A DNA stretch of 64,000 nucleotides from Actinomycetota bacterium (GCA_017856385.1 JAFMFD010000001.1:1-64000), one strand, 5' to 3'. Shown: positions 2,046-28,339, counted from the first letter of the stretch. Translations and numbers: made by a program. Notes: generated from the letters alone by a model not told the origin.

Positions 2046-2065
2046 GCCTCTGGCTGCGCGTGCGC

Positions 2066-3238: not shown

Positions 3239-3340
3239 GGCGGCAAGGGTGTCACGCTCCGGACGTGAGCGCGACGGATTCCCCCGAGGGCCGGCGGGCC
3301 CGTTCCCGGACGCGTCGGGAACGCGCTGGCGCCCGGCGGC

Positions 3341-3346
3341 TAGCCT
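3341..3346 (+). promoter_or_regulatory. -10 box TAGCCT for the TetR gene
   Basis: TAGCCT ends 6 nt before the GTG start, so the transcript should be leaderless. Confidence 0.55.
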
Positions 3347-3352
3347 TCCGGC

Positions 3353-8695: not shown

Positions 8696-8743
8696 GCAGG
8701 CTCTGGTCGCTCGACCCCGTGAGTGACCCACGTTGGAGGAGCA

Positions 8744-9760
8744 ATGAACATCAGGAAGTACGCCGCAGCCGGCATCGTGGGTGTCGTTGCTGCATCAGCC
8801 GCACTCGCCGCCGTGGCAGCACCAGCGGCCGCAGCCACGGACATCAAGATCGGCACCGTGGGCATCAACGCGATGGGCGTGGTCCCGTGGGCACAGTCCG
8901 CCGGCATCTTTGCCAAGAACGGCCTCGACGTCACGGACATCCAGATCTACCCGGCCCCGCCGCCGTCGCTTGCGGCCCTCGCTGCCGGTGCGGTGGACTT
9001 CGTCTACTCACCGTCCATCCCGATCATCAACGCGTACGCCAACGGGGGCATGGCACTGAAGGTGGTCGCTCCTGCGGACGGGTTCGCTCCAGGGCGACTC
9101 GCTGCTGCGAAGAAGGATGCGGTCCTCGCTGCGAAGCTCGACGACACTGGCGTCTGCGTCTCCCCGACGTCGGGCATCACCAGGTGGAAGGACCTCGCGG
9201 GCAAGACCGTCTCTGTGCCGGCCCGTGGGGCTCAGGGTGAGGTCACCGTGGCCTACTCCGTCAAGCGCGATGGCGGCAATCCGGCCTCCATCAATTTCGT
9301 CACCCTTCCGTTCGGCGCCGCACTCGATGCGGTGGAGTCCGGCAAGACTGACGCTGCCTTCACGGTCGAGCCCTTCACCTCGCTGTGCAAGGACAACGGC
9401 CTGAAGAACCTCGGCTCACCGGCCATCGGGTTCTTCACGACCGAGACGGCGGTCGGCATGTGGGTCACCACGGCGAAGTTCGCGGCTGAGAACCCGACTG
9501 CCGTGAAGGCATTCCAGAAGTCCATCGCCGAGGTCAACCGGTTCGGCAACACCAAGAAGGGCTGGGACCTCATCCTCCAGTCCGCGAACCCGACCTACAC
9601 CGAGGTGGACCTCGATACGGCCCGGAAGTCGTCGCCGTCGTTCCTGCCGTCGACCATCGTGAAGAACGACCTGAGCAACCCCGCGTCCAAGATGCTCGAA
9701 CTCGGCTACCTGAAGAAGCCGGTCGACGTCGCTGGGCTGCTGCTCAAGCAGTACCGCTAG
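8744..9760 (+). CDS. ABC transporter substrate-binding protein (SsuA/TauA/NMT1 type)
   Basis: A 338-residue exported binding protein. The N-terminus has a signal peptide (basic MNIRKY, a long Ala/Val core, cleavage near AAAA-TDIKIG at about 33). The mature part begins with the IKIGTVG strand and has the two-lobed pattern of the nitrate/sulfonate/taurine/thiamine-precursor binding family. The stretch LAALAAGAVDFVYSPSIPII is the typical ligand-loop region. The ATG at 8744 follows GGAGGA by 3 nt; an upstream start would spoil the signal peptide. It lacks a lipobox, so it is either free or held by the permeases. First gene of a four-gene importer; substrate probably an organic sulfonate, amine or heterocycle, not determined. 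Confidence 0.88.
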   Translation: MNIRKYAAAGIVGVVAASAALAAVAAPAAAATDIKIGTVGINAMGVVPWAQSAGIFAKNGLDVTDIQIYPAPPPSLAALAAGAVDFVYSPSIPIINAYANGGMALKVVAPADGFAPGRLAAAKKDAVLAAKLDDTGVCVSPTSGITRWKDLAGKTVSVPARGAQGEVTVAYSVKRDGGNPASINFVTLPFGAALDAVESGKTDAAFTVEPFTSLCKDNGLKNLGSPAIGFFTTETAVGMWVTTAKFAAENPTAVKAFQKSIAEVNRFGNTKKGWDLILQSANPTYTEVDLDTARKSSPSFLPSTIVKNDLSNPASKMLELGYLKKPVDVAGLLLKQYR

Positions 9761-9782
9761 TCCGGCCCTCGAAGGAGTCGCC

Positions 9783-10541
9783 GTGCCAGCAGTCCTCCGA
9801 CGCATCCCCGCAGGGATGCTCTCGGCGGTCGTCGCACTCATCGTGTGGCAGATCATCGGGTCGGTTGGACCGCTGGCCGGCGACTCCTTCGCCACCGCGA
9901 CCGAGGCCATCTCGGCGTTGTGGGTCCTCGTGCGCGAGGCGACGTTCTGGCTCGCCTTCTGGGAGACCGTCCAGATGGCCGCCATCGGCTTCGCCATCTC
10001 GATGGTGATCGCCATCCCCCTTGGCATGCTCATCGGCCTGTCCCGCTTCTCCTACCGCTCCTCGAAGTTCACGTTCGACTTCCTCAAGGTGATCCCGCCG
10101 ATCGTCCTCATCCCGATCGCCATCCTGGTGATCGGGCCGACGCTGGCTATGGGCGTGGCACTGGTGGTCTTCGCCAACGTCTTCTCCATGGCGATCCAGA
10201 CGGCGTACGGGGTCCGGGATGCCGATCCGGTCCTGCTTGAGACCATGCGGTGTTTCCGGATGGGCCTGGCCAAGCAGATCCGCTACGCACGGCTTCCCTC
10301 GGCTGCGGTCCAGATCGGCATCGGCATGCGCCTGGCCCTGGCGGCGTCCCTCGTCGTGGCCGTCGTCGCCGGACTCGTCGGGGGGGCGGGCGGCCTGGGG
10401 ACGTTCCTGGCCCTCACGCAGTCGGCCGGCAACGCGGACGACACCTACGCGGTCATCCTGTTCCTCGGGGCCATCGGAGTTGCGCTGTCGCGCCTGCTGG
10501 TCCGCGGCCATCGCCGCCTGGTGTTCTGGGTGGGGCGATGA
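9783..10541 (+). CDS. ABC transporter permease (SsuC/TauC type), first
   Basis: A 252-residue membrane protein with about six hydrophobic helices, the first directly at the N-terminus. The cytoplasmic coupling loop shows the usual EAA-like pattern in the region of DPVLLETMRCFRMGLAKQIR. It starts at GTG preceded by AAGGAG. The next permease overlaps its stop by ATGA, and two different permeases with one ATPase indicate a heterodimeric membrane channel, which is less common than a homodimer in the SsuC/TauC family. It works with the binding protein just upstream. Confidence 0.87.
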   Translation: MPAVLRRIPAGMLSAVVALIVWQIIGSVGPLAGDSFATATEAISALWVLVREATFWLAFWETVQMAAIGFAISMVIAIPLGMLIGLSRFSYRSSKFTFDFLKVIPPIVLIPIAILVIGPTLAMGVALVVFANVFSMAIQTAYGVRDADPVLLETMRCFRMGLAKQIRYARLPSAAVQIGIGMRLALAASLVVAVVAGLVGGAGGLGTFLALTQSAGNADDTYAVILFLGAIGVALSRLLVRGHRRLVFWVGR

Positions 10542-11320
10542 TCGCGCGGCGCATCTGGCACTGGCTCCTCGCGATCCTCATCGGCGGCTGGCTGCCGGTG
10601 CTGCTGGTCACGCTGTGGTGGAATGCAAGCGCCTCGTCCGAGAATCCGTTCTTCCCCCCGCTGGAACTCATCTGGGAGCAGTTCAAGCTCAACTGGGTCT
10701 TCCTCAATGTTCCGATCCACCTGGTTCCCAGCCTGCAGAACCTGTTCCTCGGCTTCGCCATCGGGGTGGTGGCAGGAATCGGGTTGGGCGCCCTGGTCGG
10801 GGTCAGCGGAGCAGTCTCCCGGTACGTGGAGCCCGTCGTCGACTTCTTCCGCTGCATTCCGCCGGTCGCACTCGTGCCGATCTTCATCCTCTTGTTCGGC
10901 CTGGACTCCGCCATGCGCGTGGCGTCGATCGCCTTCGCCACAACATTCCCCATCCTCATCGCCACCATCGAGGGCATCCGAGGTACGAATCTGGTCCTGA
11001 TCGACACGGCCTCCGTGTTCGGCCTCAGCCGTGCGCAGATGCTCTGGCGGGTGCGGCTGCCGAATGCGATGCCGGTGATCTTCGGAGGCCTGCAGGTCGG
11101 CTTCCAGATCGCCTTCATCGTCACGGTCGCCTCCGAGTACCTGGGCTCGGGCTTCGGGCTCGGCGCCTTCACCCTGATCGCGACGGACTCCTTCCTGATC
11201 CTCGACGCCTGGACCGGAGTCCTGCTGCTCGGGCTCCTGGGCTACGCGCTGAGTCTCGTCTTCGACATCGTGGAGCGCCTGACGCTCCGCTGGTACTACG
11301 GACAGAAGCAGCTGGCCTGA
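10538..11320 (+). CDS. ABC transporter permease (SsuC/TauC type), second
   Basis: A 260-residue permease with about six membrane helices. The coupling-loop motif lies around NLVLIDTASVFGLSRAQML, where the Gly after the EAA-type helix is retained. It overlaps the first permease by four bases (ATGA), a sign of translational coupling, and is followed 12 bp later by the ATPase. The C-terminal end (RLTLRWYYGQ) matches the usual tail of this family. Partner of the preceding permease in one importer. Confidence 0.87.
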   Translation: MIARRIWHWLLAILIGGWLPVLLVTLWWNASASSENPFFPPLELIWEQFKLNWVFLNVPIHLVPSLQNLFLGFAIGVVAGIGLGALVGVSGAVSRYVEPVVDFFRCIPPVALVPIFILLFGLDSAMRVASIAFATTFPILIATIEGIRGTNLVLIDTASVFGLSRAQMLWRVRLPNAMPVIFGGLQVGFQIAFIVTVASEYLGSGFGLGAFTLIATDSFLILDAWTGVLLLGLLGYALSLVFDIVERLTLRWYYGQKQLA

Positions 11321-11332
11321 GATGGAGACGAG

Positions 11333-12103
11333 ATGACGACCGCGATTGCGATCAACGGCGTGAGCATGGAGTACGTCACTCCCGAGGGCACCACGCACGT
11401 CCTCGACAACGTCAGCTATGAGGTCAGCGAGGGAAGCTTCGTCGCCATTGTCGGTCCCTCCGGAGTCGGGAAGACCACCTTGCTGCGCCTGCTCTCCGGG
11501 CTCCAGAAGCCCACGGCTGGCGAGATCCTCATCCGTGGCGAGCGGATCAGCGGCCCCCCGGCCGGCCTTGCCGTCGTCCTGCAGGACTACACCCGCTCGC
11601 TGATGCCATGGCTCACGGTTGAGCGGAACATCGCGCTGCCCCTTAAGAACCAGAAGCTGTCGAAGGCCGATCGGAGCGAGCGCATCGAGTCCTCGCTCGA
11701 GGAGGTCGGACTCTCCGGACAGGGTGGGAAGTACCCCTGGCAGATGTCAGGCGGGATGCAGCAGAGGGCCTCGATCGCGCGTGCGCTCGCCGTGCGCCCG
11801 AGCATCCTGGTCATGGACGAGCCGTTCGCCTCGGTGGATGCGCAGACCCGCTTCGATCTCGAGGACCTCGTACTGAAGGTCCGTGATGACTTCGGTATCA
11901 CCACACTCATGGTGACTCACGACATCGACGAGGCTGTCTACCTGAGCGATGAGATCGTCGTGCTCCATGGGAGGCCTGCCAAGGTGCGCGATGTGGTGAC
12001 GGTCGATATCCCTTTCCCGCGCTCGCAGATCCAGACCCGGAACGCTCCGCGCTTCGCGGAGCTGCGTACGCACGTGTACGCCATGGTGCGTGGACTGGAG
12101 TAG
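11333..12103 (+). CDS. ABC transporter ATPase (SsuB/TauB type)
   Basis: A 256-residue nucleotide-binding subunit. Walker A is GPSGVGKTT near 42-50, the Q-loop is around VLQDY, the ABC signature is MSGGMQQR, Walker B with the catalytic Glu is ILVMDEPF, and the switch His is in MVTHDIDEA. It has no extra C-terminal sensor domain. It completes the importer of binding protein, two permeases and ATPase, and is followed by a convergent operon end, so transcription should stop in the 58 bp after it. Substrate is inferred only from family: sulfonates, taurine, nitrate or pyrimidine-like molecules. Confidence 0.9.
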   Translation: MTTAIAINGVSMEYVTPEGTTHVLDNVSYEVSEGSFVAIVGPSGVGKTTLLRLLSGLQKPTAGEILIRGERISGPPAGLAVVLQDYTRSLMPWLTVERNIALPLKNQKLSKADRSERIESSLEEVGLSGQGGKYPWQMSGGMQQRASIARALAVRPSILVMDEPFASVDAQTRFDLEDLVLKVRDDFGITTLMVTHDIDEAVYLSDEIVVLHGRPAKVRDVVTVDIPFPRSQIQTRNAPRFAELRTHVYAMVRGLE

Positions 12104-12161: not shown

Positions 12162-13103
12162 TCAGGATGTCAGCGCGGCTACGCGCTCGACGACCTCCCG
12201 GCAGAACGTGGCATGCCGGTCACGCTCATCGATGAAGATGCTCGGCTTGATGCAGAACGTCGTGAAGCCCAGGGCCTGCTGCCGTGGGATCTCCTCGAGC
12301 GCCGGCCCGAGCGGCGCGCAGGAGTCGTCATCGGGGAACTCCACACGAGTGCCCCCCACGAGCTCGAACTCCTCCCACGAGCGTCCGACATCGGCGAGAC
12401 CGGCCTTCAGGCGTGCGACGTCGTCCCCGTGCACGCGCCCGACCGGGTGGAAGCCGCTGCCGTACTTCGCCAGTCTCTCGATGATCTTGTCGTGCACGGT
12501 CTCGCCGCCGAACCACATCGTCGGCCCCCCCGGGTGCATCGGCTTCGGCTCGAGGTAGACGTCGGTGAAGTCGTAGAAGTCCCCGTGGAACGAGGCGGGA
12601 GACTCGGCCCACACGCGCTTCCAGATCTCCAGCTCCTCGTCGAGGATGCGCCCACGGCGGGTGAAGGGCACACCGAGGGCCTCGTACTCGTCGACATGCC
12701 AGCTGACGGTGGGCTGGATGACCAGGCGTCCCTCGCTGAGCAGGTCCAGCGTGGCGAGGTCCTTCGCCAGGACCAGCGGGTGGCGCAGGGGGGCGATGAG
12801 CGCGATGGCGCCGACGCGGATGCGCGAGGTGGCTGCGGCGATCGCACTCAGGAGCACCATCGAAGACGGCCAGGCGGTCGCCGGATCCTGGTTGCCGGGC
12901 ATCGCGTAGTCGCGGGGATTGGCCATGCGCCCGGTGCTGCCCGCGCTCGGCCCCAGGAGGACGTGGTCGCTGACCATGACCATGTCGAAGCCGGCGTCCT
13001 CGGCCTCCTGGGCCATGCGGACAAGGCCGCGGATGTCGCGGGGATCGGTCATCGTCCAGTTCTCGGTGAGCACGCTCACCAGCCGCGGGGCGTGGTTCAC
13101 CAT
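12162..13103 (-). CDS. Luciferase-like (LLM) flavin/F420 oxidoreductase
   Basis: A 313-residue luciferase-family TIM barrel. The N-terminal beta strand SVLTENW, the segment AGFDMVMVSDHVLLGP (about 38-53) and ATSRIRVGAIALI in the middle are typical of F420- or FMN-dependent monooxygenases and dehydrogenases of this class. Last gene of the minus-strand operon hydrolase - NicX-like - GS-like - LLM. A 39-bp gap and a TAGGCT -10 box 8 nt before its ATG suggest it may also have its own promoter. A role in hydroxylating the ring that the NicX-like enzyme later opens is possible but not shown. Confidence 0.85.
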   Translation of the reverse strand: MVNHAPRLVSVLTENWTMTDPRDIRGLVRMAQEAEDAGFDMVMVSDHVLLGPSAGSTGRMANPRDYAMPGNQDPATAWPSSMVLLSAIAAATSRIRVGAIALIAPLRHPLVLAKDLATLDLLSEGRLVIQPTVSWHVDEYEALGVPFTRRGRILDEELEIWKRVWAESPASFHGDFYDFTDVYLEPKPMHPGGPTMWFGGETVHDKIIERLAKYGSGFHPVGRVHGDDVARLKAGLADVGRSWEEFELVGGTRVEFPDDDSCAPLGPALEEIPRQQALGFTTFCIKPSIFIDERDRHATFCREVVERVAALTS

Positions 13104-13111
13104 GGCCGCGG

Positions 13112-13117
13112 AGCCTA
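13112..13117 (-). promoter_or_regulatory. Possible -10 box TAGGCT for the LLM gene
   Basis: On the minus strand TAGGCT ends 8 nt before the LLM ATG, close to the leaderless spacing seen elsewhere in the window. An internal promoter in the operon is possible. Confidence 0.35.
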
Positions 13118-13142
13118 GCGGTCGGGTGCCGGAGTTCGCCGC

Positions 13143-14411
13143 CTAGTAGACGCGCGAGTACTCGTTCTGCTCCCAGTCGGTCACCGCAGCGGCCCACCGT
13201 GCGCACTCGCGGCGCTTGAGCTCGAGGTAGACCTCGATGAGGTCCGGGTGGAAGTACGACTGCAGGACGGTGTCCGCCGCGAGAGCATCGAGCGCCTCGA
13301 GCAGGGACTCCGGCGTGTGGCGGTCGGTGTTGGGCTCGGCATCGGCATCGCCGACCTGCGGCTCGGGAAGTGCGAGGCCGCGCTCCACACCGGACAGGCC
13401 TGCGGCGAACAGCGCCGCGGTCAGCAGGTGGGGCGAGGCGCTCCCGTCGGCCATCCGGTGCTCGATCCGGGTGCCCGACCCCCGCTGCCCCGGGACCCGT
13501 ACCGAGGAGATGCGGTTGTCCAGGCCCCAGTTGGCCCAGTAGCCGCTGAGCATTCCCGGCACCAGGCGCTTGTACGAGTTCACCGTGGGCCCGGCGAAGG
13601 CGGCGATCGCCTCGTGATGGTCGATGAGGCCGGCGATGAAGGACTTGGCCGTGGCGGAGATCCCGATCGGGTCGGTTTCGTCGATCAGGCAGTTGCGCCC
13701 CTGGGCGTCCCTGAGGCTCATGTTCACGTGCATGCCGTTGCCGACGGCGTCGCCGAAGGGGCGGGCCATGAAGGTGACGTCGATGCCGTTCCGGCGCGCC
13801 ACCTCGCGCGCGATGATGCGGAACAGGAAGGCGTTGTCTGCAGCGGTCATGGCGTCCTGGTGCTGCAGGGAGACCTCGACCTGACTCGGCGTGAACTCGC
13901 TGTTGACACCCTCCACCTTCAGGTCGGCCGCCTCGGCCGCCTCTGCGATGGCCTCGAGGGTGCCGGTGGGGTCCGCACCTGGCCCGATGCCGTAGACGCG
14001 GTGATCGGGAACGGGGAGCTTCGTCAGAGGCTGCCGTCCGGCGAGCAGGAAGAACTCCATCTCGTAGCCACTGACCGGCGTCAGCCCGCGCTCGGCCCAT
14101 CGATCCATCACGCTGCGCAGGGCGCGGCGGGAGTCCAGGGGCAGCGGGCGTCCGTCGGCGAAGTGCAGGTTCGCCAGGCCCACCTGGCGCGCACCCCAGG
14201 GTCGCAGGGTGCCCGGCTCGAAGCGGGCCTCCATGTCGGGGAATCCTGCGCTGGTGGAGTAGTGGTCCGTCTCGAGGAACTCCAGGTCCAGGCCCTGAAC
14301 CATCACGGTGATGGCGTAGTGGGTGGGATGCTCGAGCCGGGCGTCCGGCACCGTCTTGCCATGCGCGAGCCCGAGCAGGTCGGGGAAGAGGATGTCTATC
14401 AGCGATGTCAC
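13143..14411 (-). CDS. Glutamine-synthetase-like gamma-glutamyl ligase (2 of 3)
   Basis: A 422-residue GS-fold protein, shorter at the N-terminus than its two relatives in this window. GS landmarks: SGYEMEFFL at about 114-122, two glutamates in NSEFTPSQVEVSL, GNGMHVNMSL for the ATP-site His, NSYKRLVPG, and RIEHRMADGSASPH for the C-terminal Arg cluster. No adenylylation loop. It begins with GTG only 3 bp after the NicX-like gene, so the two are almost certainly translated together. The likely reaction is ATP-dependent gamma-glutamylation of an amine, or activation of a carboxylate, formed in the NicX-like pathway. The exact acceptor is unknown, and the pairing with a NicX-like enzyme is unusual. 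Confidence 0.85.
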   Translation of the reverse strand: MTSLIDILFPDLLGLAHGKTVPDARLEHPTHYAITVMVQGLDLEFLETDHYSTSAGFPDMEARFEPGTLRPWGARQVGLANLHFADGRPLPLDSRRALRSVMDRWAERGLTPVSGYEMEFFLLAGRQPLTKLPVPDHRVYGIGPGADPTGTLEAIAEAAEAADLKVEGVNSEFTPSQVEVSLQHQDAMTAADNAFLFRIIAREVARRNGIDVTFMARPFGDAVGNGMHVNMSLRDAQGRNCLIDETDPIGISATAKSFIAGLIDHHEAIAAFAGPTVNSYKRLVPGMLSGYWANWGLDNRISSVRVPGQRGSGTRIEHRMADGSASPHLLTAALFAAGLSGVERGLALPEPQVGDADAEPNTDRHTPESLLEALDALAADTVLQSYFHPDLIEVYLELKRRECARWAAAVTDWEQNEYSRVY

Positions 14412-14414
14412 GCC

Positions 14415-15470
14415 TCAGGCCTCCTCGCCGGCGGCGACCCCCACCAGGCGCCCCTTGTTCACGACCTGGTGATCATCGAGGAAGACGCTGCAGTCGCGCA
14501 TGGGAATGTCAAAGTGGCAGACGCTGAACCGCTCGGCGTTCTCGTTCGCGCCGGTGCTGTACATGAAGTTGCCCTCGAAGGCGCGCGCCTCGGTGCCGTT
14601 GAACTGCGAGCGGTCGTAGAGCTCGAGGTAGTCCCATCGTGCAGCGGGGTTCATGCCCCACCCGATGTGCGAGGTCGCGTAGGCGTCGGAGTCGAAGGCC
14701 GACATGTAGGACTTCAGCATCTCCGCCTGGTAGCCCTTGCCCTCGATGGCCACGACGTAGTCGTCCTCGATGGTGAGCGTGATCGGATCCTGCACATAGT
14801 GCTTGAACGTGATGTTGATGTCGCCGGGAGCCAGCACGATCTGGCCGTTCACGCGGTGCCGTGCCGGGAAGGCGAGCACGAGGCCGCCGGGCCAGTGCGC
14901 GATCTCGCCCGGTCCCTGGATGACTCCTGTGGAGCCTGCCGTGAAGGCGTCGGCCAGCTGCACCTCGATATCGGTTCCGATGTCGCTCGTCGCGCGCATT
15001 ACGCGGGCGGAGCGCATCACGTCGTGGGAGGCCGCGACCCGACGGGCCATGTCCTCGCTGTGGGGCAGGCGCTCGAAGATCTCCGGATGCTCGTTGCTGA
15101 TCATGAAGACCGATGTGCCGGCGCCGAGGATGTCGCGGAGCTCGCGCGAGTGGAGCAGGCCCTCCACGGTGAGGTCGATGACCAGTGGCACCGACGACAC
15201 GGCAGCGACTGCGCCGGTGTGACCGTTGAGCGCGAGCGAGGTGCCGGTCGAGCGGAGGGCCACCGGACCACCGTTGGCCGGAGTCCGCATGATCACCTCG
15301 AAGGGGCGTGCCCCCAGGGACTCCGCGGCCAGGATGGACGTCGCGACGAGTTCCGGGCGGCTGGAGCTCTCGGAGAGGATGACGACCTCGTCGCCGTCCT
15401 TCATGCCGTTCAGCGCGAACTGCTGGGCGAAGCGCTGGACCCAGCGCCATTCGGTGTTGCCCGTCCTCAT
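14415..15470 (-). CDS. NicX-like Fe(II) dioxygenase (2,5-dihydroxypyridine 5,6-dioxygenase family)
   Basis: A 351-residue protein matching NicX of nicotinate breakdown (a dioxygenase built on the M29 aminopeptidase fold) along its length as I recall that sequence. NicX iron ligands His265, His318 and Asp320 correspond to His268 (SHIGWG), His319 and Asp321 (CHFDIP) here; the proposed base His105 corresponds to His107 (LLHSRE). Other shared blocks are ARAFEGNFMYSTGAN and DIPMRDCSVFLDD. NicX opens the 2,5-dihydroxypyridine ring to N-formylmaleamate. Here the true substrate may be another hydroxylated N-heterocycle. It overlaps the hydrolase upstream by 4 bp and is followed by a GS-like ligase, an order I do not know from nicotinate clusters. 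Confidence 0.82.
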   Translation of the reverse strand: MRTGNTEWRWVQRFAQQFALNGMKDGDEVVILSESSSRPELVATSILAAESLGARPFEVIMRTPANGGPVALRSTGTSLALNGHTGAVAAVSSVPLVIDLTVEGLLHSRELRDILGAGTSVFMISNEHPEIFERLPHSEDMARRVAASHDVMRSARVMRATSDIGTDIEVQLADAFTAGSTGVIQGPGEIAHWPGGLVLAFPARHRVNGQIVLAPGDINITFKHYVQDPITLTIEDDYVVAIEGKGYQAEMLKSYMSAFDSDAYATSHIGWGMNPAARWDYLELYDRSQFNGTEARAFEGNFMYSTGANENAERFSVCHFDIPMRDCSVFLDDHQVVNKGRLVGVAAGEEA

Positions 15471-16252
15471 GGCAGGACCGCCTTCCAGTGTCGTGCGAGG
15501 GCCTCGTTCACAGCATCCTCCGCCTCGAGATTGAGCAGGTGCCCGGCCCCCGGGATCACCTCCAGGCGCCCGTTCGGGAGCAGGTCGACGATCGCCTGCC
15601 CGTAGGCGACCGGAGTCTCCTCGTCGAGCTCGCCGACGAGGACGAGGGTCGGCACCTCGATGCTCGGCAGGATCGCCCGGGTGTCATGGCTGGCGATGGT
15701 CGCGAGGGAGTCGAGCAGCCCTTGGAGCGGAACCCGTGACATCGCCTCGATCGCCTCGGGCACCACGTGGGCGCCGTTCGGCCCGGCGAGGGTCGGCAGG
15801 ATCAGGGGCGCTGCCGCCGCGGGTGAACCCATCTGCTCGAGGCCGGCGAGTCGGTTGGCCCGCCACTCGTCGGGATCGGTCCCGTCGAGGCCGAACTTCG
15901 GGCTCGTGCAGAGCAGGGTGAGCGAGCGGACGCGCTGCGGGGCACGGGCGGTCGCGTACTGCGCGATCATCCCGCCGAACGACATGCCGACGAGATCCAC
16001 GGGCGCATCGGGGGACACGGTTTCGATGAGGGCGACGGCTGCCCGCGCGTAGGCGTCGAACGACCGCTCCGTCACGGGCGCGGACGCGCCGTAGCCCGGC
16101 GCGTCCCAGGCGATGCAGCGGCGCAGGGCCGACAGGGCCGCCAGTTGCGGACGCCAGGCGGTGCGCCCACCGCCGAGGCCGTGCAGCAGGACGGCCACCT
16201 CGCCGATGCCCTCCTCCCGCCAGGCGATGGGCTGGGCGTCGACGTCGAGCAT
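15467..16252 (-). CDS. Alpha/beta hydrolase, candidate deformylase or lactonase
   Basis: A 261-residue alpha/beta hydrolase. The oxyanion HGLGGG motif is near 25-30, the nucleophile elbow is GMSFGG (Ser), the acid is in VGELDEETP, and the catalytic His is in GAGHLLN near the C-terminus. It resembles the PcaD/MhpC type. As the first gene before a NicX-like dioxygenase it may act as an N-formylmaleamate-deformylase-type (NicD-like) enzyme on the ring-opened product, though overall similarity to NicD is not close. Start chosen at ATG 16252, which lies 6 nt after a -10 box fed by a -35 inside the upstream operator; a longer frame reaches into the operator and is rejected. Confidence 0.83.
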   Translation of the reverse strand: MLDVDAQPIAWREEGIGEVAVLLHGLGGGRTAWRPQLAALSALRRCIAWDAPGYGASAPVTERSFDAYARAAVALIETVSPDAPVDLVGMSFGGMIAQYATARAPQRVRSLTLLCTSPKFGLDGTDPDEWRANRLAGLEQMGSPAAAAPLILPTLAGPNGAHVVPEAIEAMSRVPLQGLLDSLATIASHDTRAILPSIEVPTLVLVGELDEETPVAYGQAIVDLLPNGRLEVIPGAGHLLNLEAEDAVNEALARHWKAVLP

Positions 16253-16258
16253 CTGGGC

Positions 16259-16287
16259 ACGGTAGGGCGTGGGACTGAAGGAGTCAA
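16259..16287 (-). promoter_or_regulatory. Promoter TTGACT-17-TACCGT for the NicX-like operon
   Basis: On the minus strand, TTGACT (16287-16282) and TACCGT (16264-16259) are 17 bp apart and end 6 nt before the ATG at 16252. The -35 box sits inside operator copy 1. A leaderless transcript is predicted. Confidence 0.6.
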
Positions 16288-16319
16288 CAGTGTTGACGAT
16301 TGTGGTCAACACTGTTGAC
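16283..16319. promoter_or_regulatory. Twin operators GTCAACAnTGTTGAC between divergent operons
   Basis: GTCAACAGTGTTGAC (16283-16297) and GTCAACACTGTTGAC (16305-16319) are near-perfect palindromes and exact reverse complements of each other, with centres 22 bp apart (two helical turns). Each covers the -35 box of one divergent promoter, so a dimeric repressor could block both. The pattern fits a GntR-type or similar regulator, not identified; the GntR gene at 27651 is one candidate. Confidence 0.7.
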
Positions 16320-16342
16320 AAGCGGTAGAGCGCGCCTATCCT
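16315..16342 (+). promoter_or_regulatory. Promoter TTGACA-16-TATCCT for the acyl-CoA-dehydrogenase-like gene
   Basis: A consensus TTGACA (16315-16320), partly inside operator copy 2, a 16-bp spacer and TATCCT (16337-16342), ending 6 nt before the ATG. This is one of the strongest promoters by eye in the window. Confidence 0.65.
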
Positions 16343-16348
16343 CGTGCC

Positions 16349-17611
16349 ATGCCTCCCACCACCACCGTCACCGCACACGAGGGCGCCGCAGTCACCACCG
16401 GCAGCCCCACCGGCAGGACCGCCACCGTCGGCAGGCCGGATGCCACGATGACCCGCGAGCAGATGGTCGCCGTCATCGCCGAGCTGGGCCCGAAGTTCGA
16501 GGAGCGTGCCGTCCAGGTCGATCGGGAGGCGGTCTTCCCGTGGGGCAACTTCAACGATCTCCGAGAGCGGGGCTTCCTCGCCCTCTGCGTACCCAAGGAG
16601 TACGGCGGCATGGGTGCCTCCTACACCGACTACATGCGGGTGTCCGAGGAGATCGGCCGCCACTGCGGCTCGACCGGCCTGACTTTCAACATGCACAACG
16701 CGACGATGATCTGGGCCGGTGAGGTCGCCGACAAGCTCGACATGCCCGCCGAGGTCCGGGCCGAGCACGAGCGCCGCCGCGCCGAGATGTTCCGTGGTGT
16801 GGTCGAAGACGGCGAGATCCACTCTCAGCCGTTCTCGGAGGGACTGAACCCCGGCGCGCTCGCCGGCATTGCCACCCGGGCCCTTCCGGTCGACGGCGGC
16901 TACCTCGTCACCGGACGCAAGATCTTCGCCTCACTGTCCGGCGCTGCCGACCGCTACAACGTCACGTGCCAGGTCGAGGGCGAGGACTTCCTGCGACTGC
17001 TCTCCGTCCGCGCGAATGCCGACGGCGTCGAGATCGTCGACGACTGGGATCCCCTCGGCATGCGCGGCACCGTGTCCCGCACGCTGCTCCTGAAGGACGC
17101 CTTCGTGGCAGCCGATGACGAGATCCTGCCCGGCGGGATGTACGACCAGGCGGCGCGGAGGTACCCCTACCTGTTCATGTCGCTGGCGCCTACCTACCTC
17201 GGCCTGACCAAGGGCATCCTCGACTTCACGCGCGCCTACCTGCGCGGTGAGCTGGCAGGTGCGGCCAAGGGAACGGCACGTCGCGACAATCCGATCAAGC
17301 AGGTGGGCTGGGCGGAGATGCAGATCAAGTACGAGCAGAGCCGTGCCTTGCTCTACGGCGTGGCCGACAGCGCCACCCTCGATCCCACCGAGGAGCAGAT
17401 GATCGCGGCCTGGGCCGCGGTCTACACGACGATGGAGCACGCGAACGAGGTCGCGGCGGCGGCCGTGCGCGTCTGCGGCGGCCAGTCCATGCTTCGACAC
17501 CTGGCCCTCGAGCGCATGTACCGGGACTCCAGGCTTGGCTCGACCATGCTTCCGTGGAGTGCCGAGGTGGCCATCGAGCGCATCGGGAAGGCCAGGCTCT
17601 ACGACGAGTAG
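16349..17611 (+). CDS. Acyl-CoA-dehydrogenase-fold flavoprotein
   Basis: A 420-residue member of the acyl-CoA dehydrogenase fold. An approximately 30-residue Thr/Gly-rich leader precedes the helical N-domain; VPKEYGGMGASY (about 82-93) is the usual signature and GRKIFASLSGAADRY is the middle beta-domain. The C-terminal helical domain ends in a VRVCGGQSML segment. The usual Glu base of mitochondrial-type dehydrogenases cannot be located confidently. Relatives include acyl-CoA dehydrogenases and flavin monooxygenases (DszC/HpaB-like sulfur and ring oxidisers), so either dehydrogenation or N/ring oxygenation is possible. Divergent from the NicX-like operon and sharing its operator pair, which links it to the same pathway. 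Confidence 0.83.
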   Translation: MPPTTTVTAHEGAAVTTGSPTGRTATVGRPDATMTREQMVAVIAELGPKFEERAVQVDREAVFPWGNFNDLRERGFLALCVPKEYGGMGASYTDYMRVSEEIGRHCGSTGLTFNMHNATMIWAGEVADKLDMPAEVRAEHERRRAEMFRGVVEDGEIHSQPFSEGLNPGALAGIATRALPVDGGYLVTGRKIFASLSGAADRYNVTCQVEGEDFLRLLSVRANADGVEIVDDWDPLGMRGTVSRTLLLKDAFVAADDEILPGGMYDQAARRYPYLFMSLAPTYLGLTKGILDFTRAYLRGELAGAAKGTARRDNPIKQVGWAEMQIKYEQSRALLYGVADSATLDPTEEQMIAAWAAVYTTMEHANEVAAAAVRVCGGQSMLRHLALERMYRDSRLGSTMLPWSAEVAIERIGKARLYDE

Positions 17612-17723: not shown

Positions 17724-19265
17724 ATGTCGCAACGGGAGAATCTCCCGAAGTCGGATCAGGCCCTCGGCGCCGGTGATCCGGAAACATCGAGCACGAGCCT
17801 GAGGAAGGGCACTCTCGGCCTCTTCGGGATCATCTTCTTCGTCGTCGCGGCCGCCGCGCCGGTGGCAGGCATGACCGGTGCCTTCCCCGTCGCCCTGGGC
17901 ATCGGTGACGGAGCGGGTGCGGCCGGCATGTACGTCGCCGTCGGCATCATCCTGCTCATCTTCTCGGTCGGGTACGCGACGATGAGCCACTACGTGACCA
18001 ACACGGGTGCGTTCTTCGCCTACGTCGGACGTGGCCTTGGCATCACGTGGGGCGTCGGCTCGGCCTTCGCCTCGGTGCTTGCCTACCTGACGGTCCAGTG
18101 GGGCGTCATCGGCTTCCTGTCCGGTCAGCTCGACTTCTACCTGCAGGGCAAGTTCGGGCTCGACCTGCCGTGGTGGATCTACGGCATCATCCTGATCGTC
18201 ATCGTCTGGGTCCTGTCGGCGCTGCGTGTTGATATCGGAGCCAAGGTGCTCGGCATCCTCCTGGCCATCGAGATCCTCGCCCTCATCATCGTGTCGATCG
18301 CCATCCTTGCGAGCGGCGGCCCCGAGGGCATCAACATCGGCGCCTCCTTCAGCCCGTCGGCGATCTTCGCGGGCGGATTGGCCGGCGGCGCGGGCATCGC
18401 CTTCGCCTTCGCGCTTGCGTCCTTCATCGGCTTCGAGGCGACGGCGATCTACGGCGAGGAGTCGAAGGATCCCAAGCGCACGGTGCCGAAGGCGACCTAC
18501 ATCTCGGTCGTCTTCATCACCCTGCTGTTCGGGCTGGTCGGCCTAGCGCTGGTCACCGGGCTCGGAGCGACGGATATCCAGAACAAGGTCTTCGAGGTCA
18601 CGGCCATCGAGGGTGTCCCACTTTCCGATCCATCGGCTGTCCTCTTCAGCCTCACGGGAGCCAATGTCGGCCAGTGGATGGTCGAGCTGTTCTCGATCAT
18701 CGTCCTGACCTCGCTCTTCGCGGCCACGCTCGCCTTCCAGAACTCGGCGGCGCGCTACCTGTTCGCGATGGGTCGCGCTGGGGTGCTGCCGAAGAAGCTC
18801 GACGGTGTGAACTCGCGCCAGGCGCCGATGCGGGCCACGACAGTGGTCTCCATCCTCGCGATCGCGCTCGTGGTGGTCGGCATCATCTTCAACTGGGATC
18901 CGATCCTGAACATCTTCTACTGGTTCGGCGCAGTTGCCGTGATCGCGATCGTCCTCACCGAGATCTTCGTGAGCATCGCGGTCATCGTGTACTTCCGCCG
19001 CACCAAGGAGGACACCCGTGTCTGGCACACCCTGATCGCGCCTCTCATCGCGATCATCGGCCTGGCCATCGGGGAGTACATGCTCATGAGCCGCTTCAAC
19101 CTCTTCTCCGGCACTGCGTCGGGCGAGGGCGGTCCATGGGAGATGAACACCACTGGGTGGATTCTCGTCCTGTCTCCGTTCGTGCTCTTCGTCATCGGCC
19201 TCATCGTCGGTGCCCTGCGGAAGAACAAGGAGAACTACGACGCGGTCCACAACTTCGTGAGCTAG
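17724..19265 (+). CDS. APC superfamily amino acid/amine permease
   Basis: A 513-residue membrane protein with about 12 hydrophobic segments. After a soluble 28-residue leader, the first helix contains the APC pattern GLFGIIFFVVAAAAPVAG, and helix 6 lies around FALASFIGFEATAIYGEESKD, where GFE and EESKDPKRTVP are the typical APC landmarks. The ATG follows GGAGGAG. It should import an amino acid, amine or polyamine using the proton gradient. Lying just downstream of the flavoprotein and beside the GS-like genes, it is a good candidate for uptake of the amine substrate of the region. A hairpin follows the stop. Confidence 0.9.
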   Translation: MSQRENLPKSDQALGAGDPETSSTSLRKGTLGLFGIIFFVVAAAAPVAGMTGAFPVALGIGDGAGAAGMYVAVGIILLIFSVGYATMSHYVTNTGAFFAYVGRGLGITWGVGSAFASVLAYLTVQWGVIGFLSGQLDFYLQGKFGLDLPWWIYGIILIVIVWVLSALRVDIGAKVLGILLAIEILALIIVSIAILASGGPEGINIGASFSPSAIFAGGLAGGAGIAFAFALASFIGFEATAIYGEESKDPKRTVPKATYISVVFITLLFGLVGLALVTGLGATDIQNKVFEVTAIEGVPLSDPSAVLFSLTGANVGQWMVELFSIIVLTSLFAATLAFQNSAARYLFAMGRAGVLPKKLDGVNSRQAPMRATTVVSILAIALVVVGIIFNWDPILNIFYWFGAVAVIAIVLTEIFVSIAVIVYFRRTKEDTRVWHTLIAPLIAIIGLAIGEYMLMSRFNLFSGTASGEGGPWEMNTTGWILVLSPFVLFVIGLIVGALRKNKENYDAVHNFVS

Positions 19266-19472: not shown

Positions 19473-20705
19473 TCAACTGGAGGTGAGGTGGGCGGGGAAT
19501 GCGGCGATGCCGTTGACGAAACTTGAGCGGGTGCGCAAGACGGGCCCGGTGCGGTCAAGGCAGATGCGCCGGTTGATCATCTCCTCGAGCAGCACCCTGA
19601 TCTCCATGCGAGCGAGCGGGGCTCCGAGGCAGTGGTGCGGGCCCTTGGCGCCGAACGACACCTGCGGCGGCTTGATCGGCCGGGTGATGTCGAATCGCAG
19701 CGGGTCGGGGAACTCGTCATCGTCGAAGTTGGCCGAGCAGTAGAACATGACGACTTTGTCGTCCTCGCGGATCGGCACGCCCGCAAGCTCGGTGTCGCAG
19801 GTCGCGGTGCGGCGCATGTGCAGCACCGGAGTGGCCCAGCGGATGATCTCCTCGACCGCGTTCTCAACAAGTTCGGGCCGGCGGTAGAGCAGGTCCAGCT
19901 GGTCGGGATTCTCAGTGAAGGCCAGCAGGCCGTTGCTGATCGCTGTACGAGTCGTCTCATTGCCGGCGAAGACGAGCACATGGAACATGTTCTTGAAGTC
20001 GAGGTCCGAGAGTGCCTCACCCTCGTAGCGCGCCTCCACCAATGCGGTGGTGAGGTCGTCCTTGGGATTGCGCGTGCGCTCGTCGCGCATCATCCGCCCG
20101 TACTCGAAGAGTGCGTGCGACGCCGGTGCGCTGAAGGGAAGGAGCTCCAGCGGCGTGGTGTTGCCGTAGGCGTCGGCAGGGACCCCGGTGGAGTCGATCA
20201 GCTCATCGGACCACTGGACGAGCATCGCGGCATCATCCTCGGGCACGCCGAGGATGTTGATGATGACGCGGATCGGCAACGGTGCACTGAGAGCCTGAAC
20301 GACGTCGATCGAGCCCTGCTCGCTCGCCGCCTCCAGCAACTCGACGGTGATCTCCCGCGTGACGTCCTCGTAGGACTTGACGCGGTGGCTGGTGAAGGCG
20401 GGGATGCCGAGCTTGCGCAGCCTGACGTGCTCGGGAGCGTCGGTGTCGATGATCGACCGACGGGCGGTCATCTGCTCCTCGGTGAGGTCAGGGAGGTTCG
20501 TCATCCCGCGTGCACTGGAGTAGGTCTGCGGGTCTCGGGTCACCGTGACGACATCGCGGTAGCGGGTGATGGCCCAGTAGGGCCTGCCCTCGTACATGCG
20601 CAGGGCGACGGGGTCGGTGCGGCGCATCTCGGCGAACACGGCGTGCGGGATGCCGTCCGCGTAGGCGCCCGGTTCGGTGATGTCGATGGACTCCAGGGTC
20701 GTCAT
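19473..20705 (-). CDS. Cytochrome P450 (CYP125/142-like)
   Basis: A 410-residue P450 with all standard elements: I-helix AGNETTR at about 247-253 (the acid-Thr pair is complete), K-helix EIIR at about 286-289, and heme loop FGAKGPHHCLGAPLAR with Cys at about 359. The AGNETTR and FGxGxHxCLG pattern, with an HMRRT segment, resembles actinobacterial steroid- and terpene-type P450s such as CYP125 and CYP142, but the substrate here is not known. Its ATG overlaps the stop of the upstream alcohol dehydrogenase by four bases, so the two form an operon: a P450 may make an alcohol that the dehydrogenase oxidises. Confidence 0.9.
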   Translation of the reverse strand: MTTLESIDITEPGAYADGIPHAVFAEMRRTDPVALRMYEGRPYWAITRYRDVVTVTRDPQTYSSARGMTNLPDLTEEQMTARRSIIDTDAPEHVRLRKLGIPAFTSHRVKSYEDVTREITVELLEAASEQGSIDVVQALSAPLPIRVIINILGVPEDDAAMLVQWSDELIDSTGVPADAYGNTTPLELLPFSAPASHALFEYGRMMRDERTRNPKDDLTTALVEARYEGEALSDLDFKNMFHVLVFAGNETTRTAISNGLLAFTENPDQLDLLYRRPELVENAVEEIIRWATPVLHMRRTATCDTELAGVPIREDDKVVMFYCSANFDDDEFPDPLRFDITRPIKPPQVSFGAKGPHHCLGAPLARMEIRVLLEEMINRRICLDRTGPVLRTRSSFVNGIAAFPAHLTSS

Positions 20706-21676
20706 GCGCGAGCTCCCGGGGTGATGACGAAGCGACCGGAGACATCGCCACGGTGCAGCCGGTCATGGGCGGAGGCGACGTCGTCGAGCCCGATCACCTC
20801 GACGGGGGAGTGCAGGGGGTGTCTCTGCGCCAGGGCCACCATGTCGTGCATCTGCGCGAGCGATCCCCAGACGGAGGTCATGAAGCGTGCCTCATGCGGC
20901 ACCGCGCCGAATCCGAACGGGATGGTGCCGCCGTAGAGGCCGACGACGACGACGAGGCCCTGGCGGGCGATGTGGTCGCGCGCGGTGACGAGGGTGGGCT
21001 CGGCCCCGACGAAGTCGATCACGGCCGTGAACGTGCCCTCGACCTCTCCGGGGGCGGCGACGGCGTCGGCCCCGAGCTCACGCGCGACCGCGCGCTTCTC
21101 CTCGGAGGCATCGACCACGGTCACCTCCGCGTCGGAGCGGATCTTCAGCCACTGCAGGCCGAACTGGCCCAGGCCTCCGGCCCCGATGACGAGGGCGCGG
21201 GGGCGTGTCGCATGAGCCAGGGTCTCGAGCACGTGGTCGACGGCCCGGTAGGCCGTCAGGCCTCCGCAGGCGAGGGGAGCCGCGTGCACGGGATCGAGGT
21301 CGCCCAGGGGCACCAGATAGCCCTCATCGGGCACCGCCAGCCGCTCGGCGTAGCCGCCATCGCGGAACAGGCCGGCCTCTGTGGCATTCGGGCAGATCAT
21401 CTCCTGCCCGGACGCACAGGCCCAGCAGTCCGGCTTCCGGCAGCCCCAGCACGCGTAGACGAGCACGGGTCCGAGTCGCTCGTGCCGGGCCGCCACCTCG
21501 TGGCCCAGCACAACGGGCAGGACGGTCGGGTAGTCGCCGGCCGCGGCATGGAGGTCCGAGTGGCAGATGCCGCAGGCCAGCACATCGACCACGGCGCCGC
21601 CCGGGGGGGCCGTGGGCTCGGCCACGTCGCGGACGGTCAGGGGGTCGCCGGGGGCGGTGAGGACGACGGCGCGCAT
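20702..21676 (-). CDS. Zinc-dependent alcohol dehydrogenase (MDR family)
   Basis: A 324-residue medium-chain dehydrogenase. The catalytic zinc region shows CGICHSDLH (Cys and nearby His) and GHE; the structural zinc loop is an unusual CWGCRKPDCWAC stretch with four Cys. The Rossmann motif is GAGGLGQFGLQWL. It oxidises an alcohol or reduces an aldehyde with NAD(P). It is the first gene of a two-gene operon with the P450, with a four-base overlap. It is divergent from the GS-like gene at 21775, and the 98-bp gap holds an AT-rich motif shared with another divergent promoter at 26139. Confidence 0.9.
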   Translation of the reverse strand: MRAVVLTAPGDPLTVRDVAEPTAPPGGAVVDVLACGICHSDLHAAAGDYPTVLPVVLGHEVAARHERLGPVLVYACWGCRKPDCWACASGQEMICPNATEAGLFRDGGYAERLAVPDEGYLVPLGDLDPVHAAPLACGGLTAYRAVDHVLETLAHATRPRALVIGAGGLGQFGLQWLKIRSDAEVTVVDASEEKRAVARELGADAVAAPGEVEGTFTAVIDFVGAEPTLVTARDHIARQGLVVVVGLYGGTIPFGFGAVPHEARFMTSVWGSLAQMHDMVALAQRHPLHSPVEVIGLDDVASAHDRLHRGDVSGRFVITPGARA

Positions 21677-21733
21677 GGAGCCTCCCGATCGGGTCCGGGC
21701 GGAAAACCCGGACGAGCACGTCTGGGCAGACTA

Positions 21734-21743
21734 CATTTATCAA
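21734..21743. promoter_or_regulatory. Shared motif CATTTATCAA, copy 1
   Basis: This AT-rich block stands out in GC-rich DNA between the divergent alcohol dehydrogenase and the GS-like gene. The same 10 bases occur in the divergent promoter at 26139-26148. It is a candidate binding site of a common regulator, possibly the GntR protein encoded at 27651. Confidence 0.5.
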
Positions 21744-21774
21744 GTATCCGAAATCTATCCCTTGGGGAGGCGCG

Positions 21775-23118
21775 ATGACCGGGTGGGACCCGCAGGAGCA
21801 CGACCGGGTGGCCGCGCTGTGCGAGGAGCACGGCATCCACACCGTCGAGTGCGTCTTCGTCGACACCTGGGGCATGCCCCGTGGCAAGCGGCTGCCGGTG
21901 CGGCAGTTCCTGCGGGGCAAGGGCTACGCGATCGCCAACGTCGTGTACTCATGGGATCCGACGTGCGGCATCTACGACACACCTTGGACGTCCGTCGGCG
22001 AGGGTGTGCCGGACATGCACGCCGTGCCCGACCTCTCGAGCTTCCGGATCGCGGGCTGGACCGAGGGCGTGGGCATTGTCATGTGCGACACCGTGCACCC
22101 CGACGGCCGCACGATCGAGATGGACGCGCGCGCGATGCTCAAGCGCCAGCTCGCTCGCGCTGCTGATCTCGGCTTCGGCGTCGACGCTGCGTCCGAACTG
22201 GAGTTCCATGCCTTCACGGAGGACTGGACTCCGCTCTACAGCGACATCAACTGCTACTCGATCTTCCGCGGCTGGGAGATGGAGCCGTTCATGCTCGACA
22301 TTCGCGAGTCCCTGCGCAAGACCGGTATCGAGGTCGAGGCCTGCAACGTCGAGTACGGTCCCGGGCAGACCGAGATCAATGTGCGCTACGGCCCGCTGAT
22401 GAAGATGGCGGACGACACCGTGCTGTTCAAGTACATCGTGCGCCTGTGCGCCAAGCGCCACGGCATCAATGTCACGTTCATGGCCAAGCCCTATCTGCTC
22501 GAGGCAGGCAATGGCTTCCATGTCCACCAGTCCCTCACCAGGGACGGCGTCAACGCCTTTGCGGAGCAGGATGAGGACTCTCCCCTCGGCAGCAGCCTCA
22601 TGCGCCGGTACCTCACCGGCCTGCTGGCCCACCACAAGGAGCTCCAGCTGGTGATGACGCCGACCATCTCCGGCTACAAGCGCGTGCAGGACTACTCCTT
22701 CTCCCCAACCCAGGTCACCTGGGGACTCGATCACCGGCTCGTGGGCGTCCGCTCGATCGTGGGCGAGGGCAGCGGCAACCGGCTCGAGGCCCGCTGGGCG
22801 GCTGCGGATGCGAACCCGTACCTCGTGTTCGCCAGCATCCTCGCCGCCGGGCTCGATGGCCTGGAGAACGACTACGAGCTCATGCCGCAGGTCATCACCG
22901 ACCCGCACACGGACGACTCGTGGGACCGCCTGCCCAGCGACATCGAGGGAGCCATCGAGAACTTCGACACGCCATTCAACCGCAGTGTCTTCGGCGATGT
23001 CTTCGTGGACAACTTCCTGATCATGCAGCGACGCGAGGCCGAGGCCTTCCGGGCAGAGGCGGATCAGGGCGAGGACGTCAGCCAGTGGGAGATCACGCGC
23101 TACCGGGCGGTCATCTAG
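21775..23118 (+). CDS. Glutamine-synthetase-like gamma-glutamyl ligase (3 of 3)
   Basis: A 447-residue GS-fold ligase. GS landmarks: ASELEFHAF (about 142-150), NVEYGPGQTEIN with its two metal glutamates, EAGNGFHVHQSL for the ATP-site His, and RLEARWAAADANPYL near the C-terminus. No NLYDLPP adenylylation loop is seen. It starts at an ATG after GGGGAGG. The next gene, a glutamine amidotransferase, begins at the very next base. A GS-like ligase next to such a hydrolase is the order of aniline operons (TdnQ-TdnT, AtdA1-AtdA2), where the pair makes and disposes of gamma-glutamyl amide. By analogy it probably glutamylates an amine substrate; an ordinary glutamine-forming role is unlikely. Confidence 0.87.
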   Translation: MTGWDPQEHDRVAALCEEHGIHTVECVFVDTWGMPRGKRLPVRQFLRGKGYAIANVVYSWDPTCGIYDTPWTSVGEGVPDMHAVPDLSSFRIAGWTEGVGIVMCDTVHPDGRTIEMDARAMLKRQLARAADLGFGVDAASELEFHAFTEDWTPLYSDINCYSIFRGWEMEPFMLDIRESLRKTGIEVEACNVEYGPGQTEINVRYGPLMKMADDTVLFKYIVRLCAKRHGINVTFMAKPYLLEAGNGFHVHQSLTRDGVNAFAEQDEDSPLGSSLMRRYLTGLLAHHKELQLVMTPTISGYKRVQDYSFSPTQVTWGLDHRLVGVRSIVGEGSGNRLEARWAAADANPYLVFASILAAGLDGLENDYELMPQVITDPHTDDSWDRLPSDIEGAIENFDTPFNRSVFGDVFVDNFLIMQRREAEAFRAEADQGEDVSQWEITRYRAVI

Positions 23119-23817
23119 GTGGCACGGATCCTGCTGATCAGTCATGAGCCGCAGGCCGCGCCAGCGCTCATCGGCGAGATCCTGCGCGAGCAGGGGCACG
23201 CCATCGTGCTGCACGTGGTCCTCGCAGACCCTGAGGACCCCGACACCGACTTCCCCGATCCGCACTCCTTCGACGCGGTGATCGCCTTCGGGTCCTTCGC
23301 GAATGCGTACGACGCTGAGGTGCAGGCGTGGGTCGAGCCCGAGCGACAGCTCATCAGCGGCATGGTCAAGGACGACATCCCCTACCTCGGCGTCTGCTTC
23401 GGCGGCCAGCTGCTCGCCCAGGCGGTCGGCGGCAGCGTCGAGCGCGCGCCGGTGGACGAGCAGGAGATCGGGCTGGTCACCTTCGACGAGGATGCGGGCC
23501 TGCCCGTGCCGGCGGGTCCGTGGTTCACGTGGCACGAGGACCGCGTCGTGGTGCCGCAGGGCATCGAGGTCCTGGCGCATAACGGCAAGGCCGTCCAGCT
23601 CTTCCGCACCGGTCGTGCCGTGGGCACCCAGTTCCATCCCGAGGCCGACGTTCACGTGGTCGGGTCGTGGGTGAGCATCGGCCCCGATCACATCCCGACA
23701 CACACGAGCGGACCGGAGATCCTGGAGGATCTGACGACGAATGCGGATGAGCTTCGGCGCAACTGCGAGCAGCTGGTCGACTGGTTCCTCCGCGAGGTGG
23801 CCGAGGTGTCCGCATGA
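23119..23817 (+). CDS. Class I glutamine amidotransferase-like hydrolase
   Basis: A 232-residue GATase-1 domain protein. The nucleophile Cys is at about 93 in GVCFGGQ, and the catalytic His and Glu are at about 173 and 175 in QFHPE. There is no synthetase domain, so it should hydrolyse a gamma-glutamyl amide on its own. It begins with GTG immediately after the GS-like ligase stop, with no gap, and overlaps the CoA transferase by four bases. The pairing resembles AtdA2/TdnT, which remove gamma-glutamylanilide, and PuuD in putrescine use. A role in releasing the product amine or preventing build-up of the glutamyl adduct is inferred. Confidence 0.87.
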   Translation: MARILLISHEPQAAPALIGEILREQGHAIVLHVVLADPEDPDTDFPDPHSFDAVIAFGSFANAYDAEVQAWVEPERQLISGMVKDDIPYLGVCFGGQLLAQAVGGSVERAPVDEQEIGLVTFDEDAGLPVPAGPWFTWHEDRVVVPQGIEVLAHNGKAVQLFRTGRAVGTQFHPEADVHVVGSWVSIGPDHIPTHTSGPEILEDLTTNADELRRNCEQLVDWFLREVAEVSA

Positions 23818-28331: not shown

Positions 28332-28339
28332 GGAGCACG

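Follow-up and report, generated by a model that had tools for sequence, protein, structure and literature searches.

Gene organization of the locus

The window, i.e. the whole stretch of 64,000 bp analysed here, derives from a lake-type actinobacterium. Inspection of its open reading frames verified five genes at positions 12162-17611 (Table 1), and Pfam and NCBIfam profiles confirmed the LLM, GS, ABH and ACAD assignments. The gene for an alpha/beta hydrolase (ABH) is the first of a minus-strand operon. It overlaps by 4 bp with the gene for a NicX-like dioxygenase, which in turn is separated by 3 bp from the gene for a GS-like ligase. The gene for a flavoprotein with the fold of acyl-CoA dehydrogenases (ACAD) is divergently oriented. 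The operon structure described in the initial annotation was thereby confirmed, except for the gene for an LLM-class flavoenzyme located 39 bp downstream of the GS-like gene. It had been listed among the operon's enzymes but lies outside the conserved core, and in relatives it belongs to a separate unit together with an acetoacetate-decarboxylase-like gene. As it is not kept in distant loci, it was rejected as a core enzyme and is peripheral to the module.

Table 1. Features of the locus and basis of their assignment; positions are counted from the first nucleotide of the window.
Feature	Position	Strand	Basis
TetR-family regulator, candidate repressor for operators	3353-3997	+	66% orthologue of TetR adjoining GS in relatives
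NMT1/SsuA-like ABC importer	8723-12103	+	Binding protein (SBP) 8723-9760; permeases 9783-10541, 10538-11320; ATPase 11333-12103
LLM-class flavoenzyme, F420_Rv2161c subfamily	12162-13103	-	TIGR03619 over cut-off; peripheral
GS-like ligase; gamma-glutamyl transfer to amine predicted	13143-14411	-	Gln-synt_C, E 9.5e-92
NicX-like non-haem Fe(II) ring-cleavage dioxygenase (predicted), 351 aa	14415-15470	-	PDB 7cn3, E 6.7e-59; AlphaFold2 model; iron ligands
Alpha/beta hydrolase (ABH)	15467-16252	-	Pfam Abhydrolase_1/6
Two 15-bp palindromes (putative operators), GTCAACA[GT/CT]GTTGAC	16283-16297, 16305-16319	.	Between ABH and ACAD
ACAD-fold flavoprotein, predicted class D flavin monooxygenase	16349-17611	+	Catalytic Glu replaced; nearest folds
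APC-family permease, candidate importer	17724-19265	+	Same operator at its promoter in relatives L125, L126

The 96-bp gap between the ABH and ACAD genes contains two perfect 15-bp palindromes, GTCAACAGTGTTGAC and GTCAACACTGTTGAC, for which the chance expectation within the window is 0.05. No further copy with at most one mismatch was found in the 2.6-Mb genome. Related loci totalling 1.44 Mb contain 22 copies of GTCAACANNGTTGAC as compared with 0.013 expected from composition, and the sequence is located at the ABH/ACAD or the ABH promoter in more than 20 actinomycete loci. The operator is also present upstream of the APC permease gene in locus L126 and, with one mismatch, in L125. Operators shared by the divergent genes, as postulated initially, are indeed found in the window, where they are common to both promoters. 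A tetR gene adjoins the GS-like gene in many related loci; the product of its orthologue in the window is predicted to bind the palindromic site and is a candidate repressor.

In L004-L006, the genes for the NMT1/SsuA-like importer immediately precede ABH-NicX-GS and share its strand. A second case of an NMT1-type importer beside a NicX-family gene is L121 (7699-9671), where an outlying NicX homologue (38%) starts 17 bp after a gene for an NMT1-type ABC binding protein. Loci L004, L005, L006 and L060, whose cluster is actinobacterial and 75-81% identical to that of the window, come from metagenome-assembled genome records titled Bifidobacterium breve; these titles look wrong.

Further genes of related type are present in the window. 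Region 693-3997 comprises a third GS-like gene (693-2045), a P450 gene (2066-3238, minus strand) and the tetR orthologue; the third GS-like gene and the P450 gene adjoin the NicX module in relatives L002 and L123. Region 19473-24977 codes for a P450, an alcohol dehydrogenase (ADH), a second GS-like protein, a class-I GATase and a CaiB-type CoA transferase, and the aldehyde dehydrogenase genes at 26170-27654 and 28328-29818 go with this set. In gene content, this region is similar to the ipuC cluster for gamma-glutamyl-isopropylamine on plasmid pTC1, which comprises GATase, P450 and GS genes.

The NicX-like protein: fold, iron site and a changed residue

A profile search assigned the NicX-like protein to no Pfam or NCBIfam family. 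A PDB sequence search yielded NicX (7cn3) as full-length match with approximately 34% identity. The iron ligands of NicX are His265, Ser302, His318 and Asp320 (PMC7910607). They align with H268, S305, H319 and D321 of the window protein, and all four are invariant across 61 aligned loci. Further, R296 corresponds to NicX Arg293, H192 to His189, and L106-H107 to Leu104-His105. The initial placement of His268, His319, Asp321 and His107 at the positions of the NicX metal ligands and base was therefore correct, with Ser305 added as fourth ligand.

An AlphaFold2 model built from 31 relatives (mean pLDDT 88) superimposed on NicX 7cn3 with a TM score of 0.88 and an rmsd of 2.3 Å, as opposed to TM scores of 0.55-0.62 and 6.6-8.9 Å for M29 aminopeptidases. 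Homologues are annotated as 'peptidase M29' in public records, and such an aminopeptidase amid unrelated neighbours was considered as a competing assignment. Given the fold comparison and the invariant NicX ligands, this assignment was rejected and retains next to no probability. Judged by the model, both the fold and the iron site of the protein are of the NicX type.

For the small family defined by NicX, a single type of substrate is known. Glu177 of NicX forms hydrogen bonds with N1 and O1 of 2,5-dihydroxypyridine, and an E177A variant keeps 2.7% of the activity (PMC7910607). The equivalent position is Ser180 in the window protein, a change that the initial annotation had overlooked, and every locus of the window clade has Ser, Gly, Thr or Val there; the classical loci, i.e. 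those linked to nicD/E/F, all have Glu. The O1 contact His189 is kept (His192). In the tree, the window clade is set apart with full support from NicX of P. putida and from every nicD/E/F-linked locus. Given the loss of Glu177 throughout the clade, the group bound at the N1/C2 side of the substrate is likely to be different.

Conservation and rearrangement of the neighbourhood

Sixty loci from GTDB genomes, plasmid records and further genomes were compared. Those with sufficient flanking sequence comprised 42 loci of the window clade and 17 classical loci; as these include many close relatives, the counts given below are not independent. In the window clade, the NicX-like gene is accompanied by genes for ACAD (28/42), ABH (26/42), the GS-like ligase (20/42) and TetR (16/42). 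Genes nicD/E/F are near it in none of the 42 loci, as compared with all 17 classical loci; the latter have no ACAD, ABH, GS-like or tetR gene, and of the further genes compared only two flavin reductases. Homologues of the window protein are hence not regularly found next to classical nicotinate genes.

These data bear on the possibility that the protein is an ordinary 2,5-dihydroxypyridine dioxygenase of a plain nicotinate or hydroxypyridine pathway whose neighbours merely differ. Such a role would agree with the overall identity to NicX, the same iron site and the conserved His189 and Arg293, and three genes with MoCoBD domains (xanthine-dehydrogenase type), i.e. of the hydroxylase type, are present elsewhere in the genome. 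The clade-wide absence of Glu177 and the lack of nicD/E/F in 42 of 42 loci argue against it, as does the finding that neither NicE nor NicF has a match in the window genome. We consider this possibility quite improbable, and a classical nicotinate operon was rejected because of the neighbourhood and the loss of Glu177. The same three findings make it probable that the substrate differs from that of NicX. The initial annotation had reached this conclusion from the absence of nicotinate hydroxylase genes; the conclusion stands in part, on the residue and the neighbourhood, but the absence of the hydroxylase is not clean in view of the MoCoBD genes.

In actinomycetes, the gene order is ABH-NicX-GS, with the ACAD gene divergent. 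Acidimicrobiales show the order ABH-ACAD-NicX-GS, rhizobia NicX-ACAD-ABH-TetR-GS-flavin reductase-APC, and marine alphaproteobacteria NicX-ABH-ACAD-CoA ligase. A gammaproteobacterium has the rhizobial order, with the last two genes (flavin reductase, APC) undetected. As gene orders differ between lineages, the set was kept together through rearrangement. It is present in several bacterial phyla, and its distribution is scattered: NicX-like matches were obtained for 21 of 99 relatives, with a patchy occurrence even inside the genus, and for eight of 396 genomes of the phylum, two of which are classical. All eight marine acidimicrobial genomes tested that lack a neighbouring ACAD gene possess an ACAD homologue (51-55%) elsewhere.

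The ABH showed no measurable closeness to NicD. The rhizobial ABH of L070 (17371-18660) comprises about 430 aa, with an additional N-terminal part of about 150 aa that appears SRPBCC-like by eye.

Marine alphaproteobacterial and acidimicrobial loci have no GS-like gene and carry a CoA ligase gene instead. The ligases are of differing types (benzoate/anthranilate in L002; FadD/feruloyl in L018, L026 and L047), so that the final steps seem to vary from one lineage to another, a point against the scheme proposed below. A CoA ligase as universal step was dropped from the core, since an automatic cluster had lumped unlike ligases. Two other candidates were discarded: a 705-aa gene near L018, suspected to code for an aminobenzoyl-CoA monooxygenase, encodes a helicase, and a 301-aa gene adjoining ACAD in L127, considered as hydrolase, encodes a CHAD protein.

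The GS-like ligase

The GS-like protein contains the motifs with E117, E119, E172, E179, H228, R282, E317 and R319, i.e. the metal- and glutamate-binding residues are kept. The DGSS motif of the ammonium site is absent (both read by eye). The enzyme is predicted to gamma-glutamylate an amine.

A tree that included PuuA, IpuC, TdnQ-type, GmaS and GlnA as references resolved the GS-like genes located beside NicX-like genes into at least three groups, the separation of which is clear while the deep branches are weak: (i) the window type; (ii) an Acidimicrobiales/Kineosporia type, which is sister to P450-linked GS-like genes; (iii) a rhizobial type with just 26% identity to the window protein. The window protein grouped with none of PuuA, IpuC, TdnQ and GmaS; it represents a lineage of its own with 29-31% identity to each. 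The pairing of a NicX-like with a GS-like gene, singled out in the initial annotation, is therefore recurrent, and since at least three distant GS lineages are involved, it probably arose repeatedly and not by common descent alone. Such repeated recruitment to one core is the best evidence here for gamma-glutamylation as a real step. A literature search returned no paper on the combination of NicX-like and GS-like genes, with subscription journals largely outside its coverage.

A ligase for amines would suit an N-alkylated pyridine, e.g. trigonelline, homarine or another betaine, as substrate: ring opening and hydrolysis would free an alkylamine, which the GS-like enzyme would capture as gamma-glutamyl amide. 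Ligases of the GS-like type that act on alkylamines are known, the hosts are marine, lake and rhizobial bacteria, and loss of Glu177 would remove the N1-H contact while the O1 contact His189 stays, which fits an N-substituted 2-pyridone. The literature search found no gene-level paper for homarine and the other leads. We regard such a substrate as rather unlikely, because no amidase or maleate isomerase is conserved in the module and the GS-like genes branch apart from the GmaS reference.

The ACAD-fold flavoprotein and flavin supply

Throughout the family of the ACAD-fold protein, the segment with the catalytic Glu of acyl-CoA dehydrogenases (YEGT) is replaced by MLP(W/Y), and no Glu is present at the isovaleryl-type position (both read by eye). 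In fold comparisons, the protein came closest to 5gj7, 5z8t (flavin-containing monooxygenase), DszC and indole-bound TdsC, with true ACADs ranking close behind the monooxygenases. The protein is predicted to be a class D flavin monooxygenase. Hydroxylation of a ring is suggested by the fold, the lost dehydrogenase Glu and a partner reductase gene: a flavin reductase is encoded near the module in L013-L019, L070, L071, L074, L075 and L125-L127. In the window genome (96% complete), no flavin reductase of family PF01613 was found, with a control that was positive in 13 of 14 genomes. This lack of an identified flavin supply counts against the pathway proposed below.

LLM genes are located beside the module in the window and in L002, L003, L010, L060, L123, L124 and L128, and flavin reductase genes in L013-L019, L125-L127 and the rhizobial loci. 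The two types of genes are apparently mutually exclusive at this place, and the LLM protein may stand in for a flavin reductase. In L123, the LLM gene is directly followed on the opposite strand by a gene (14104-14949) for a protein with a formyl-transferase domain (PF00551), possibly linked to a released formyl group.

An alternative, in line with the fold resemblance to indole-bound TdsC, is an indole-type pathway. The ACAD-fold protein would form 3-hydroxyindole or a substituted derivative, the NicX-like protein would cleave C2-C3 to yield N-formylanthranilate, and the hydrolase would release anthranilate, to be activated with CoA or gamma-glutamylated in an aniline-like manner. ACAD-like proteins that work with a flavin reductase are among the indole oxygenases listed in a review (PMC6221969). 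In addition, the CoA ligase gene that adjoins ACAD in close relatives encodes a protein of the benzoate/anthranilate-CoA ligase type (best PDB match 4wv3, E 1.8e-91), and a product with both amine and carboxylate would explain the two alternative ligases. In Aminobacter pAA02, the genes immediately upstream, which are on the same strand, code for a cupin similar to gentisate-1,2-dioxygenase and for an FAH hydrolase; such genes would be expected where the pathway leaves a benzene ring. However, other lineages have another CoA ligase type, the window genome contains no close copy of that ligase family (best 36%, with the L047 member as query), none of the loci of the clade is known as an indole locus, and the conserved importers suggest a polar substrate whereas indole diffuses. 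On balance, an indole-type pathway seems unlikely.

Proposed pathway

The reading we rather favour is a TetR-regulated catabolic module for an N-heteroaromatic compound, or another ring compatible with a NicX-type enzyme, that differs from 2,5-dihydroxypyridine and is processed by hydroxylation, cleavage, hydrolysis and glutamylation. The APC or the NMT1-type ABC importer would bring in the compound. The ACAD-fold protein would hydroxylate the ring with reduced flavin, which in several relatives could be provided by the reductase encoded beside it. The NicX-like Fe(II) dioxygenase would then cut the C-C bond next to the hydroxyl group and the ring nitrogen, as its fold and its iron site suggest. 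The ABH, to judge by its position, may hydrolyse the N-formyl or acyl product, perhaps by deformylation, which is the role of NicD in the nicotinate pathway. Finally, the GS-like enzyme would form the gamma-glutamyl amide of a substrate amine or of the freed amine. Of this scheme, the analysis established the gene content, the iron site, the changed contact residue and the conservation of neighbours and operators, and it supports a module for oxidation, ring opening and hydrolysis; glutamylation, the N-heterocycle as substrate and the sequence of the steps are inferences.

As to the substrate, a ring without free NH-C=O at the N1/C2 side, such as an N-substituted or 2-carboxylated hydroxypyridine, is tentatively put first; 3-hydroxyindole or a similar fused ring, which would yield N-formylanthranilate, is a doubtful second possibility, and 2,5-dihydroxypyridine itself is very improbable.

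The locus brings together known enzyme families in a conserved combination for which the literature search gave no description, and a single residue supplies the reason to expect a new substrate. The chances are about even that it represents a previously undescribed cross-phylum pathway composed of a NicX-family dioxygenase with new ring specificity, a gamma-glutamyl ligase and an ACAD-fold hydroxylase of the two-component type. In that case, the GS-like ligase would have been acquired on at least two or three separate occasions, and glutamylation would be integral to ring-opening catabolism.

Solved structures are known for few enzymes that open N-heteroaromatic rings. A clade that has the NicX iron site but another substrate contact, and that occurs in bacteria of seas, lakes and soils, would broaden the chemistry known so far and would mark the use of nitrogen heterocycles by abundant uncultured bacteria. 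The operator together with TetR offers a direct route to the inducer.

Comparison with known systems

NicX and Hpo (7cn3, 7cup) share with the window protein the fold, the length, the His/Ser/His/Asp ligands, Arg293, His189 and Leu104-His105, and their genes are likewise adjoined by one for an alpha/beta hydrolase. The window protein differs by Ser in place of Glu177 and belongs to a separate clade. Its module includes a GS-like ligase but no NicD, NicE or NicF, and the hydroxylase is of the ACAD fold instead of a NicC-type FAD monooxygenase.

In the kpi pathway for 4-hydroxypyridine in Arthrobacter IN13, a flavin monooxygenase, a ring-opening dioxygenase and a deformylase-type hydrolase follow in the same order. 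However, KpiA (FAD_binding_3) and KpiC (an amidohydrolase-fold dioxygenase) belong to other families than the ACAD-fold and NicX-like proteins (PMC7356986). The iif/ind indole operons of Acinetobacter and Cupriavidus also employ a two-component flavin oxygenase on an N-heteroaromatic; in place of the iif short-chain dehydrogenase and cofactor-free oxygenase (PMC6221969), the present module has a NicX-like dioxygenase and a GS-like ligase. PuuA (putrescine), IpuC (isopropylamine), TdnQ/AtdA1 (aniline) and GmaS (methylamine) are GS-fold ligases of amine or aromatic catabolic operons with the same catalytic Glu/His/Arg set, but the partner here is a NicX-like dioxygenase and not a P450, a Rieske protein or an amine oxidase.
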